A DNA stretch of 49,319 nucleotides from a virus. The position numbers and the translations under genes are program-made. This document shows, piece after piece, positions 31,193 to 35,869 of the stretch (its first letter is position 1; every line of letters starts with the position of its first letter). The stretch covers positions 1 through 49,319 of IMG/VR virus record IMGVR_UViG_3300031699_000002; one strand, written 5' to 3'. The notes below the pieces were generated by a model, which ran no database searches, was not told the origin of the DNA, and worked only from the letters and a program-made list of their open reading frames with translations.

Positions 31193-31789
31193 GTGAAATT
31201 GAAATTGAAAAAGAAAGTGAAGAAAACTATTGGGAAGATCAAGCCTTTAAGTGTGGAGATTGTCTCCGTTGATAGTGTTAAGCCATGGAAAGATAACCCG
31301 CGTATAAATGAACAAGCGGCAAAGAAGTTAGCTCCGATACTTAAGTGTCATGGACAGGTGACACCGATCGTGGTCTGGGAAAAAAACAAAGTGATATATA
31401 AAGGGAATACTACACATAAGGCCCTGAAGATGAACGGGGAAAAGACAGTGAAGGTATTGTTTGTAGATTTCCCCAGTGAGTCATCAGCAGTGGCCTATGG
31501 GATTGCGGATAATAGATCAAGTGAATTCAGCTACTGGGATGATGAGTTGCTGGAGAAGATGATGGAAACGGGTCAACTTGATTACGAGGAGATGGGTTTT
31601 ACCAAAAGAGAATTCAGAGCCATAACACTCCTACCCGATGTTGATATTGTAAACAGAAAGGCAGAGCATAAGGCGCTGGCTCCGCTGAATTCAATTGTGG
31701 TTAAATGTGAGACTGATATATTGGACGATCTTAGAAAGGATATCTCAGAGATCGTGGCTCAGTATCACGGGAAGGCGGTAATGGCATGA
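31193..31789 (+). CDS. ParB/Srx-like domain protein
   Basis: A 198-residue protein starting at GTG 31193, right after GGAGGTAGGA. Residues ~25-115 carry the ParB N-terminal-like pattern: VDSVKPWKDNPRINEQAAKK, then HGQVTPIVVW, IYKGNTTHKALKMNG and YGIADNRSSEF. ParB-like proteins of this type bind or cut DNA or hydrolyse nucleotides, and several phage versions accompany DNA-modifying enzymes. It overlaps the DpdA gene by four bases, so a partnership in base exchange or target choice is plausible. The C-terminal third is unrecognised. Confidence 0.7.
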   Translation: MKLKLKKKVKKTIGKIKPLSVEIVSVDSVKPWKDNPRINEQAAKKLAPILKCHGQVTPIVVWEKNKVIYKGNTTHKALKMNGEKTVKVLFVDFPSESSAVAYGIADNRSSEFSYWDDELLEKMMETGQLDYEEMGFTKREFRAITLLPDVDIVNRKAEHKALAPLNSIVVKCETDILDDLRKDISEIVAQYHGKAVMA

Positions 31790-32679
31790 TAATTCCTATA
31801 CTTGTTTCATTCGCATACCGTAATGCTCTTGGCCAGAAAGGCCTGGAGTATTTGCGGGAGATCGTGGACAGCGGCGGGGAGTTGAGGATGTTCTTGGACA
31901 GCGGGGCCTTTACTCAATTCACAGCGGGAAAGAAAGTGGACCTGGACGAGTATTGCGATTGGCTTTATAATATTAAAAACGTATTCAGTAAAATGGGCGT
32001 ACGGTGTGAGCATGTGGCGCTGGATGTTGTCGGCGATCAAATAGCTACACACAAAAACTATAAAGCGATGCTGGGCCGATTCCCTGACACTCTCCCGGTA
32101 TTTACGAGGGGAGGGTCTCTGTCTCTACTGAAAAGCTATTTGAGGACGCGGGAGAGGGTCGCACTGGGCGGGCTGGGCAATGTAGATAGGACATCTTGCA
32201 GATATGTGAGGGATTTATACAGCAAGTCAGAGGCGCTTAGGGAGAATTCACGCAAGGTACACTGGTTCGGATTTACGAATAAAGATTATGTGGCAACATA
32301 CAGGCCAGGTACAGTGGATTCCAGCGAGGCCTTCGTCGATGCCCTCAGATTCAAAAAGATTTCTATGTATCAACCAGAAGGGCGCCTTACCACTTCAGTA
32401 GTAAAGGGGAGTTTGAAGGAAGACAGGAGAGCGCGGGCACATCTTAGGCTTTTCTGTGAAAGGTATGGATTTAATTACGAGGACCTGGCTAACGTGGAAG
32501 AGAATTGGATAGGCGATTCATGCCTAAGCTGTATAGCAAGTATGGTTGGGAGTATTACTTACATACAAAAATTAATAAGGAGGACTGGCACTGTTTTTTA
32601 TATGGCAGTGATAAGCGAGGAAAGACTTATAAGTGTTAGAGAAGCTATCAAAAAAATAAAGGAGGCCGGAGATGTCTAA
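31786..32679 (+). CDS. DpdA-type DNA-guanine transglycosylase
   Basis: A 297-residue TGT-like enzyme. MFLDSGAFTQF (D38) matches the DSGGF-type substrate Asp of tRNA-guanine transglycosylases; VALDVVGDQIAT (D80, D84) fits the catalytic Asp region; VALGGLGNV is the Gly-rich base-binding loop; WFGFTNKDY and DSSEAF follow. It is shorter than tRNA enzymes and lacks their C-terminal zinc site, as phage DpdA proteins do. It would remove guanine from DNA and insert a 7-deazaguanine such as preQ0. It is flanked by ParB-like and QueC genes with overlapping ends, the expected setting. Confidence 0.85.
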   Translation: MIIPILVSFAYRNALGQKGLEYLREIVDSGGELRMFLDSGAFTQFTAGKKVDLDEYCDWLYNIKNVFSKMGVRCEHVALDVVGDQIATHKNYKAMLGRFPDTLPVFTRGGSLSLLKSYLRTRERVALGGLGNVDRTSCRYVRDLYSKSEALRENSRKVHWFGFTNKDYVATYRPGTVDSSEAFVDALRFKKISMYQPEGRLTTSVVKGSLKEDRRARAHLRLFCERYGFNYEDLANVEENWIGDSCLSCIASMVGSITYIQKLIRRTGTVFYMAVISEERLISVREAIKKIKEAGDV

Positions 32680-33325
32680 AAGGAAGCGGGCATTAAAAAG
32701 CTGTGTGGCACTTCTGTCGGGAGGTATGGATTCAAGTGTGATGGTTGCGTGGGCCCATGAACTTGAATGGGAAGTACACGGACTTACAATACTCTATGGG
32801 TCAAAGCACAATCAACGGGAAGCGAGGAGTGCAAAATGGATCGGGAAGAAATACTGTAAGAGTCATAAGATCCTCAGGCTTGATGGATTAGGGAAGCTGT
32901 TGCAATCGGATCTGATCAAGGGCTCAACTAAGATTCCTAAAGGCGCTGGGTCAATCGTTCCCATGAGAAATGCTATTATGCTTTCCATTGCCAGTGGTTA
33001 TGCAATCTCCAAGGGCGTTAAATATATATACTTGGCAACACACTACGGCGACCACGAGGTTTATCCAGACTGCAGGACTATTTTCAATAGGAGTATTAAG
33101 GATGCTCTTTGGGAAGGCAGTGAAGGAAAAGTAATACTCAGTTTTCCATTTCAGTACGAGTCAAGAGAATACATAATTAACTTGGGAGAAAAATTGGGTG
33201 TGGACTTCAATAAAACGTGGAGCTGTTACATGGGAGGAGAAAAGCCCTGCGGCAAGTGCGGAGCTTGCATTGAGAGGAAGAAAGTTTTTAAGCTCGTTAA
33301 AAAGGAGGATCCGCTATGCTGTTAA
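32672..33325 (+). CDS. queC: 7-cyano-7-deazaguanine synthase
   Basis: A 217-residue enzyme with the PP-loop motif LLSGGMDSSVM (residues ~15-25), the VPMRNAIMLS loop, and the four-Cys zinc site near the C-terminus (WSCYMGGEKPCGKCGACIER). QueC uses two ATP and ammonia to turn 7-carboxy-7-deazaguanine into preQ0. No amidotransferase-like extension is fused, so the simple preQ0 product is expected. It overlaps DpdA by eight bases and the sulfotransferase-like gene by ten. It catalyses the last synthetic step before DpdA insertion. Confidence 0.92.
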   Translation: MSKRKRALKSCVALLSGGMDSSVMVAWAHELEWEVHGLTILYGSKHNQREARSAKWIGKKYCKSHKILRLDGLGKLLQSDLIKGSTKIPKGAGSIVPMRNAIMLSIASGYAISKGVKYIYLATHYGDHEVYPDCRTIFNRSIKDALWEGSEGKVILSFPFQYESREYIINLGEKLGVDFNKTWSCYMGGEKPCGKCGACIERKKVFKLVKKEDPLCC

Positions 33326-34002
33326 TTACTGGTACACAGAGGTCGGGTACAAGTGTATTGAGTAAACTACTGATGAACCTCGGATATGATCTGGGAACCA
33401 GGTCGTGGCATGATGATATAAACGGCGGGCTTGAATCTCCTCATATCTGCTGGGCCATGAGGAAGTATCTCGACCTTCCGGGATTTCCATTCGAGGGGTT
33501 CGATGAATGGATTGGGAATGAAGTTGAACCTATGGATTTAAGTGAACTGGATAAAAAATTTGATGTCCAGAAATTTTCTTTCCTTTTGATGAATCCAAAT
33601 TTTGTCCGTACCTACTTGCACTTGCGTAGGAGAAAGGATAGGTTTCTCATACTAACTCGGGATCCTTCAGATGTGATAAAGTCAAAAGCTTGCACCCGTG
33701 AGAGGGTCGCAAGATTTTATGGCGATCATCGTATCCTAAAATTGGACGCTAAAACTTTGCGTAAAAGGTTTTTTGAATGTCTGGAAATTCTTAATGAAGG
33801 ATCGGAGCTGTTCTCCTTTTTGTTGTTCCCTGATTTTCTTCAGACTCCGAGGCTTGTATATGATAAGATTACGGAATTCGGAGGACTTGATATGCCGTGG
33901 GATGATTTTTTCATGGAGTGGGATCATCTAATTGATTTAGGACTATCGCACACATTCAAAAAGGAGAATGAGGATGATGGTAAAAGTAGCCAGGACATTT
34001 AA
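33316..34002 (+). CDS. Sulfotransferase-like P-loop protein
   Basis: A 228-residue protein. LITGTQRSGTSVLSKLL (residues 3-19) is the 5'-phosphosulfate-binding loop of PAPS-dependent sulfotransferases. LILTRDPSDVIKSKACTRER (near residues 112-131) fits the 3'-phosphate-binding Arg/Ser motif. GYDLGTRSWHDDINGGLESP lies between, a pattern seen in bacterial and phage members. It would move a sulfate from PAPS to an acceptor hydroxyl or amine. Its location between queC and queD, with overlaps on both sides, is not part of the known pathway. Candidate acceptors are modified DNA bases or virion glycans; a kinase-like role is a less likely alternative. Confidence 0.7.
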   Translation: MLLITGTQRSGTSVLSKLLMNLGYDLGTRSWHDDINGGLESPHICWAMRKYLDLPGFPFEGFDEWIGNEVEPMDLSELDKKFDVQKFSFLLMNPNFVRTYLHLRRRKDRFLILTRDPSDVIKSKACTRERVARFYGDHRILKLDAKTLRKRFFECLEILNEGSELFSFLLFPDFLQTPRLVYDKITEFGGLDMPWDDFFMEWDHLIDLGLSHTFKKENEDDGKSSQDI

Positions 34003-34396
34003 ATTTTGTGCTTCCCATAGACTGACTAAGCATAAGGGCCTGTGTAGAAATATACATGGTCACACATACGCCGTGGATCTGGTGATCGAGGACAAGATAA
34101 ACAGCCACACAGGCATGGTTATGGATTTTGCGGAGATGAGAATATTGGAAGAGGAGGTGAAGCATTATTTTGACCATGCTATACTACTGAATAAATATGA
34201 TGAGGAGCTGGTGAAATTCTGTGAGGAACAGGATTACAGGATCGTGTATTTAAAAGATGATCCAACGGCTGAGCTAATTGCGGGGTCGATACTTGAAACA
34301 GCCCGTATGATTTTTCCAGAAGTTAATTCAATATTTATCAGAGTCCACGAGAGTGAAAAAACCTGGGCCGAGGTGTGTTATGTTAAAGGTGAATGA
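33974..34396 (+). CDS. queD: 6-carboxy-tetrahydropterin synthase
   Basis: A 140-residue QueD. FKFCASHRL gives the zinc-binding H15, CRNIHGHTY gives catalytic C24 and zinc-binding H28 and H30, and VHESEKTWAEV gives the conserved Glu near the end. It converts dihydroneopterin triphosphate to 6-carboxy-tetrahydropterin. ATG codons occur at 33968, 33974 and 33977; AAGGAG at 33961-33966 best serves 33974. It overlaps the sulfotransferase-like and QueE genes, so all are probably co-translated. Confidence 0.92.
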   Translation: MMVKVARTFKFCASHRLTKHKGLCRNIHGHTYAVDLVIEDKINSHTGMVMDFAEMRILEEEVKHYFDHAILLNKYDEELVKFCEEQDYRIVYLKDDPTAELIAGSILETARMIFPEVNSIFIRVHESEKTWAEVCYVKGE

Positions 34397-34970
34397 AATA
34401 TTTTATTCCATACAGGGGGAAGGCCATGATGTGGGCGCCCCGCACCTCTTTGTCCGTCTCTCAGGATGTAACATGGCTTGTAGTTTCTGTGATACTGACC
34501 ATAAGAAAGGAATCGAGATATCGGTGGACGATCTATTGCAGTCTATATCTGTCGGCCCATACAAGTTTCTCCCAGTGGTGTTGACGGGCGGGGAGCCGTT
34601 GATGCAACCCGATGTCTGGGATTTTATTGAAGCTGTCAGAAATGTGGGGCGAAGGGTTGTGATAGAAACGAATGGCACTTTTCCTCTGAGGATGAGGAAT
34701 AGGCTGAATACCCATGTATGTGTTAGCCCTAAGATTCCTTTAAAACATGTGAAGATCGGATATATTAACAGCTTGAAACTGTTGTATCCTTTCTTGCCGG
34801 GCTGTGGGTTGAAGGAAGCTTTTGAATTGGATTGTGTCGCGGATCATATCTATATACAGCCGATAGACAATGATCCTAAATATGTGCAGGACATTGTGGG
34901 CATGTTAAAATGGAGCCCAGGTCTTGTTTCCCTGAGTGTTCAAGTCCATAAACTTTTTAAACTGTTATAG
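34380..34970 (+). CDS. queE: 7-carboxy-7-deazaguanine synthase (radical SAM)
   Basis: A 196-residue radical SAM enzyme starting [15 protein letters not shown]. The cluster-binding motif is C30-NMA-C34-SF-C37, the SAM-binding motif is [12 protein letters not shown], and VVIETNGTF follows. It rearranges 6-carboxy-tetrahydropterin into 7-carboxy-7-deazaguanine. ATG 34380 has GAGGTG upstream and lies within the queD 3' end; the frame is open earlier without a start signal. Slightly short for the family, but all core motifs are present. Confidence 0.92.
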
Positions 34971-34984
34971 AGGAGGTGGTCTCG

Positions 34985-35869
34985 GTGAAGGTAAAAAATA
35001 TTACGGATAGTGTAGTGAATAAAGCGGCTTTAAAAGTTGCTCGTCAAATTGCCAATTGTAAAGTTCAGCATATTATATTGTACGGGATACCCCGAGGCGG
35101 TTCTGAGGCTGTCATAAGGGTACATGAGGCTTTAAGAAAATGGAGCGGTATTCAAAGCAGTATCACAACTAATGTTAATGAGGCTAACATTATCATCGAT
35201 GATATAGTGGATACTGGTAATACTGCCAGGAAGTACATACAGAGAGGACAGCACTTCTTTGCTCTATTCAAAGCAGACGGAAAAAGTTATGTGAAATTTC
35301 CGTGGGAGAATTCCACTGGCGGGATTGATGATAATATAACCAGGGTGCTTCAGTACATCGGTGAGGATCCGTTACGTGATGGTCTGATAGATACTCCAAA
35401 AAGAATTATCAAGATGTACGGAGAAATCTTTCGCGGGTATAGTGAGGATCCTGCGAAGGTGCTGGGTCGTACTTTTCGAATGTCTGTGGATGAAATGATC
35501 ATCGTTAGAGATATACAATTTTATTCCATGTGTGAACATCATATGATGCCTTTCTTTGGAAAAGTTCATATCGCTTACATACCCACTGGCGGACTTGTTG
35601 TTGGTCTTTCAAAGCTTGCACGGGTCGTGGACTGCTTTGCCAAGCGCCTACAGATACAGGAGAGGATGACTGAGCAGATATCAGGCAGCATTGAAAAGAG
35701 ATTGAAGGCGAAGGGCGTGGCTGTGATCGTAGAGGGCCAGCATTTATGTATGCAGATGAGGGGAGTGCAGAAACAGGGCTCGGTGATGGTGACAAGCTCG
35801 TTGAAAGGCAGTATGAAAGAGGAGCGGGCAAGGATTGAATTATTACTTTTAAAAAATGGAGGAGTGTAA
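34985..35869 (+). CDS. folE: Phosphoribosyltransferase-GTP cyclohydrolase I fusion
   Basis: A 294-residue two-domain enzyme starting at GTG 34985, eight bases after AGGAGG. Residues ~1-105 are a type I phosphoribosyltransferase-like domain: [12 protein letters not shown] (residues ~32-43) and the PRPP loop [17 protein letters not shown] (68-84). Residues ~115-294 are GTP cyclohydrolase [15 protein letters not shown], then [11 protein letters not shown] (zinc C183 and H186), [11 protein letters not shown] and [10 protein letters not shown] (zinc C255). FolE opens the deazaguanine pathway by making dihydroneopterin triphosphate from GTP. The front domain could convert the guanine freed by DpdA back to GMP. 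The fusion frame is uninterrupted. Confidence 0.88.

Follow-up and report, generated by a model that had tools for sequence, protein, structure and literature searches.

A compact Gpt-like phosphoribosyltransferase domain fused to phage GTP cyclohydrolase I: a proposed role in guanine recycling during 7-deazaguanine DNA modification

The open reading frame at positions 34985–35869 (+ strand) of IMG/VR record IMGVR_UViG_3300031699_000002 encodes a phosphoribosyltransferase (PRT) domain joined to a GTP cyclohydrolase I (FolE) domain. The whole record of 49,319 bases was analyzed and is termed the window. The fusion gene probably encodes a bifunctional enzyme of the phage 7-deazaguanine DNA-modification pathway, by which guanine freed by the DNA transglycosylase DpdA would be recycled to GTP. 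The pathway is known, and the Gpt-like PRT is best seen as an undescribed compact component, and an undescribed architecture, of it. A search of 5.39 million open-access papers found none in which “dpdA” and “phosphoribosyltransferase” occur together, in keeping with an earlier note on this DNA whose author knew of no described enzyme with this pairing.

The frame runs from a GTG start codon to the stop codon with no internal stop and translates to 294 aa. A Shine-Dalgarno-like GGAGG, read directly at positions 34972–34976 (+ strand), is 8 bases ahead of the GTG at 34985. The longest open reading frame starts at an upstream GTG at 34976, however this codon sits within the GGAGG and the start at 34985 is therefore preferred. 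Residues are numbered here from GTG 34976 (297 aa); subtraction of three gives the numbering from the preferred start. The AlphaFold model of the whole fusion has a pLDDT of 94.3 and a pTM of 0.81. The earlier note described a PRPP-binding domain and a complete FolE in one frame beginning at 34985, and both the architecture (from the open frame, the PF01227 match and the PRPP loop) and the start are borne out. A chance or frameshift artefact as the source of the fusion is rejected, as dozens of diverged records repeat it.

The FolE domain is encoded at 35324–35851 (+ strand). Residues 119–285 match PF01227 with an E-value of 1.1e-71 and a score of 240 bits, where the cut-off is 27, and the TIGR00063 score is 232.8 bits against a cut-off of 181.6. 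The CEHH motif (35531–35542) and C258 (35747–35749), both on the + strand, are invariant in 60 fusions including that of the window; these are the residues of FolE enzymes that bind zinc and take part in catalysis (Cys, His-His, Cys). The window FolE is complete, as is the FolE of the Enterobacteria phage 9g type, and it lies in a similar 7-deazaguanine gene neighborhood; complementation of E. coli by the FolE of phage 9g is reported (PMC6884629). In passages of that paper, the main survey of phage 7-deazaguanine genes, the phage FolE is handled as a single-domain protein with no mention of an N-terminal PRT.

The N-terminal domain (34985–35308, + strand) is approximately 110 residues long and is a compact Gpt-like PRT domain by profile, Foldseek and loop spacing. 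The standard family model PF00156 matches this part with an E-value of 0.086 in the whole protein, where the score of 12.6 bits is below the cut-off of 26.3, and with 0.0079 for the domain alone. The PRPP motif proposed earlier is present at 35189–35224, however the standard domain search is sub-threshold for the N-terminal domain and thus does not by itself secure the call. The best NCBIfam match is the xanthine PRT model PRK09177, at 16 bits and far under its cut-off of 138. A profile built from ten family members matches the Yersinia and E. coli XGPRT structures in the PDB with E-values from 4.6e-13 to 1.4e-11; Sulfolobus GpT-1 and the purine PRT of Pyrococcus horikoshii are matched as well. 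In a Foldseek search of the PDB with the AlphaFold model of this domain (pLDDT 92, pTM 0.84), XGPRT chains are the top matches (E-value = 1.3e-6). By both methods every one of the nearest relatives of solved structure is a 6-oxopurine PRT, with XGPRT first; profile and predicted fold thus support a 6-oxopurine PRT of the guanine/xanthine type.

The window domain has the same fold as Gpt/XGPRT of E. coli and Yersinia (PDB 1a95, 4jls and 5xtk; Foldseek TM-score, normalized to the query, 0.67). Both have the PPi loop, a PRPP loop that includes the catalytic Asp, and a W/Y-x-x-x-P-W-D/E hood. Unlike Gpt, it is fused to FolE, has lost about 20 residues including the flexible loop, shows roughly 20% identity and falls below the family-model cut-off. 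The HGPRT/adenylate kinase of Zobellia galactanivorans likewise carries a purine PRT and a nucleotide enzyme in one chain, and both of its parts are functional (PMC7326950). It differs from the window fusion in its kinase partner, its full-length PRT and the absence of a link with DNA modification.

The active-site segments, all on the + strand, were compared over 63 family members (alignment A2). In the PPi loop P39-R40-G41-G42 (35090–35101), G42 is present in 63/63, P39 and G41 in 62/63 each, and R40 in 52/63. The 12-residue PRPP loop (35189–35224) displays the pattern DDxxD(S/T)GxT, where D75, D76, G81 and T83 are found in all 63 and the catalytic-type D79 in 62. The putative purine-O6-reading Lys, the counterpart of K115 in Gpt, is placed at K99 (35270–35272) in the window; the usual Lys of the family, present in 52/63, is one column on. 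The hood segment YVKFPWE (35288–35308) aligns with Gpt WIEQPWD in the HMM alignment, and its first position, 105, is Trp in 61/63, Tyr in the window and aromatic in all 63. In 62 of the 63 members the set of PRPP loop, catalytic Asp and aromatic residue for base stacking is complete. Loss of PRPP-binding residues in relatives, which the earlier note named as evidence against its reading, is not seen, these residues being near-invariant.

The spacing between the PPi and PRPP loops is 33 residues in the window, with a family median of 27, compared with 49 in Gpt and 51 in the unfused Cellulophaga phage PRT. By this measure the flexible active-site loop (loop II) of known PRTs and HPRTs is absent from the window domain, and it is for this reason classed as Gpt-like and not as a plain Gpt member. 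Catalysis by the domain is thus not to be taken for granted. Full deletion of loop II in Bacillus subtilis HPRT gives a dimer that binds pppGpp much more weakly (PMC6783271); by analogy, loss of the loop could, speculatively, release the phage domain from (p)ppGpp inhibition.

The PRT part is under purifying selection. Its dN/dS in close pairs is 0.02–0.28, mostly above that of FolE and far under 1. This value, with the active site intact in very diverged members, argues against a degenerating passenger domain of no function, a very improbable reading in spite of the domain being diverged, shortened and under the family cut-offs.

A Patescibacteria MAG (L120:4056–4451) encodes a 131-residue PRT that stands alone, lacks the loop and carries these motifs; the compact form thus occurs in cellular genomes too, independently of FolE. 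Free-standing relatives are found in 5 of 192 Patescibacteria genomes. When genome contigs were scanned with the PRT profile, ordinary PRTs dominated the matches, and the scan yielded only the L120 protein and a broken match in a Lewinella MAG.

The domain might also be a sensor that tunes FolE on binding PRPP, GMP or (p)ppGpp and does not turn these ligands over. PRT-fold regulators are known, such as PurR and PyrR, the flexible loop is absent while ligand-binding residues are kept, a ppGpp-bound PRT (PDB 5vog) is among the Foldseek matches, and FolE catalyzes the committed step, a natural point of control for a fused domain. However conservation extends beyond the PRPP loop to the catalytic-type Asp79 and the base-stacking aromatic, both near-invariant, and unfused members of canonical length retain the loop spacing of working enzymes. 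Unfused PRTs are also present in the same pathway, and that of the Cellulophaga phage is about 19 kb from FolE, where control of FolE in cis is impossible. A sensor is therefore considered rather unlikely, although it is the strongest of the alternatives.

The fusion gene lies in a run of genes on the + strand of the window that contains DpdA together with FolE, QueC, QueD and QueE. The other genes of the run are those of a ParB-like protein (31193–31789; phrog_620, E-value = 2e-27), followed by a DpdA-like DNA transglycosylase (31786–32679; phrog_887, E-value = 8.6e-23), QueC (32672–33325; PF06508, E-value = 1.8e-48), a sulfotransferase-like P-loop protein (33316–34002; PF13469, E-value = 1e-5, just under the cut-off), QueD (33968–34396; PF01242, E-value = 9.2e-28) and QueE (34353–34970; PF04055, and phrog_2076 with E-value = 4.4e-30). 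The ParB-like gene and the start of dpdA overlap by 4 bases, which suggests translational coupling. The sulfotransferase-like gene overlaps both queC and queD; its product could carry out a further base modification or be unrelated.

Among annotated phages, matches that cover 80% or more of the fusion protein are present in 33 records, from phages of Stenotrophomonas, Pseudomonas, Vibrio, Xanthomonas, Variovorax and Sphingomonas. The annotated fusions are named GTP cyclohydrolase only. Those of PaMx25, NP1, VpKK5, MMDA13 and vB_SM_ytsc_ply2008005c have the architecture and neighborhood seen in the window and carry just this label. In PaMx25 (L004:7871–8801), the gene annotated as hypothetical, PaMx25_38, is in the wrong frame and the start of PaMx25_37 (folE) is misplaced. 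The true PRT-FolE frame is open from L004:7908 and extends to 8801; the PRT part escaped annotation, since the FolE start was set at VFPWE and the stretch before it was assigned to another frame.

A scan of IMG/VR with the PRT profile gave 80 loci, nearly all of them FolE fusions beside Que genes. After removal of sequences more than 80% identical in the PRT domain, isolates and IMG/VR contigs together provide 65 non-redundant PRT-FolE fusions, of which 34 are flanked by 5 kb or more on each side. DpdA, QueD and QueE are present in every one of these 34, thus the link of the PRT with FolE, QueD, QueE and DpdA is near-perfect. The earlier note had proposed a check for other such fusions and for their co-occurrence with DpdA, and it regarded fusions common in phages without DpdA as evidence against its reading; none is seen among the 34 loci with flanks long enough.

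Several candidates were rejected. H35/H36 and H34, taken as possible partial fusions, are plain folate-operon FolE genes on apparently bacterial scaffolds. L035 and L109 were considered as counterexamples without DpdA, however L035 encodes a protein with phage homologues that bear the annotation queuine tRNA-ribosyltransferase, and L109 has a TGT-like open reading frame with a DSGGFQ motif. The family models phrog_7068 and PF01702 gave no match in the five records lacking a DpdA match.

A FolE tree of 94 rows requires six changes between fused and unfused labels, at least three of them forced by supported branches, hence the fusion has been gained or lost repeatedly. In three fusions (L012:1953–2921, L013:5965–6933 and L014:984–1952) the PRT is preceded by a segment that repeats the N-terminus of unfused FolE proteins and that in L012 reads MENIVTNPKDIECA. 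This FolE-like leader before the PRT suggests a separate origin. The same three loci have Cys in place of the catalytic-type Asp (DDICCTG), and they possibly represent a separate fusion that has lost activity.

The PRT is also found unfused in 7-deazaguanine gene clusters. In Flavobacterium immuto phages a short unfused PRT adjoins FolE and DpdA, in Brevundimonas phage StAshley it directly follows FolE, and in Synechococcus phage BUCT-ZZ01 it lies between QueE and QueD; Campylobacter and Cellulophaga phages likewise have an unfused PRT in a 7-deazaguanine pathway setting. A second IMG/VR scan, seeded with unfused PRTs, gave 80 loci, which with one from a phage collection make 81. Que genes are present at 76 of these 81 and at 27 of the 28 with flanks of at least 7 kb, but the scans were seeded with cluster members and the percentages are not an unbiased census.

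General purine salvage, in which the domain would increase the GTP available to phage DNA and RNA synthesis and have no particular connection with base exchange, has generic chemistry in its favor, as well as the nearness of the unfused Cellulophaga and Brevundimonas PRTs to genes for dNMP kinase and ribonucleotide reductase. It appears improbable. FolE and QueD are found in every tested annotated phage group with a Gpt-like PRT, four records with an unfused PRT in all, and the Que association is not expected of a generic gene, some seed bias remaining in it.

A recognizable transglycosylase is present at 18 of the 28 wide-flank unfused loci, and at 9 of the 27 wide-flank loci that bear Que genes no recognizable DpdA is seen within about 10 kb; some of these may carry a transglycosylase elsewhere. 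As the PRT also occurs unfused and sometimes with no recognized DpdA, its link is with the whole 7-deazaguanine pathway and is tightest to DpdA in the fused form. The earlier reading of the domain as a purine PRT for guanine recycling is partly supported. The 6-oxopurine type is borne out by profile and predicted fold, and the reading withstood those of its refuting conditions that sequence data could address, while the missing lid loop and the loci with no recognized DpdA count against it. Also counted against recycling are the many DpdA phages that have no PRT. Conversely, in 13 records with an unfused FolE cluster no clear PRT of the Gpt-like family is present elsewhere either; 12 lack one altogether and one has a marginal match.

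The Que clusters with no recognized DpdA speak for another reading, in which the PRT would use a 7-deazaguanine base (preQ0 or its amide), the nucleotide serving for incorporation by polymerase or for another use. So do Campylobacter phages, which have the PRT and are reported to be rich in dADG and to lack DpdA (PMC6884629). However 14 Campylobacter phage records contain a protein of about 260 residues that is 43%–44% identical to the annotated DpdA of the Flavobacterium immuto phages, e.g. in phage F379 (L134:1399–2175, – strand; phrog_19058, “unknown function”). Immuto-type proteins are present also in Cellulophaga phage phi13:1 (gp036, L136:10457–11236) and Brevundimonas phage StAshley (L135:1213–2013). 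The immuto type aligns to a DpdA profile built without it at an hhalign probability of 95.8 (E-value = 7e-9), and its HLLG...SLDTS resembles the HGLG...SVDS of DpdA. On this sequence similarity the protein is a candidate for the missing transglycosylase of Campylobacter phages. The phages of these three hosts were accordingly rejected as examples lacking DpdA; phages believed to have none are suggested to carry a remote homologue.

The remote homologue speaks against a 7-deazaguanine substrate, as does the presence of DpdA in every fused case with enough sequence. The substrate of DpdA is the free base, so that a PRT using 7-deazaguanine would compete with it. The PRT is moreover fused to FolE, which consumes GTP, and not to QueC, which makes preQ0, a choice of partner that counts for recycling of guanine. 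Use of a 7-deazaguanine base is thus quite unlikely. The Tyr for Trp105 and the shifted Lys of the window count against recycling.

In the proposed guanine cycle, DpdA would put preQ0 or a derivative of it in the place of guanine in DNA and so free guanine; in the transglycosylase family one guanine is released per base exchanged. The Gpt-like domain would then convert guanine and PRPP to GMP, acting on guanine as its substrate and without a flexible loop, host GMP kinase and NDP kinase would raise GMP to GTP, and the C-terminal FolE would start the route from GTP to preQ0 via QueD, QueE and QueC. The benefit to the phage would be the recycling itself. Hosts usually have their own Gpt or Hpt, and the need for a phage PRT is therefore not obvious.

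The scale of the release can be estimated. The window has a G+C content of 43%, which corresponds to about 21,000 guanines per genome on both strands. In some phages about 30% of guanines are modified (PMC6884629). At this proportion, and if a burst of 100 is assumed, about 600,000 guanines would be freed per cell. This amount would be roughly comparable with the GTP pool of a cell.

More broadly, and as a tentative proposal that falls a little short of an even chance, phages with 7-deazaguanine in their DNA may commonly carry an overlooked Gpt-like PRT, often fused to FolE, which salvages the ejected guanine. The fused form, at 87–145 residues to the end of the hood (median 107), would be among the smallest PRTs, having shed the loop and remained active. 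If this is true, base exchange would be a closed guanine cycle and not a one-way drain on GTP, the PRT would serve as a marker gene, and a recurrent domain concealed by “GTP cyclohydrolase” annotations would be explained. The cost of 7-deazaguanine modification would become testable, and the fusions would provide a PRT that lacks the flexible loop by nature and so lends itself to study of the loop's purpose.
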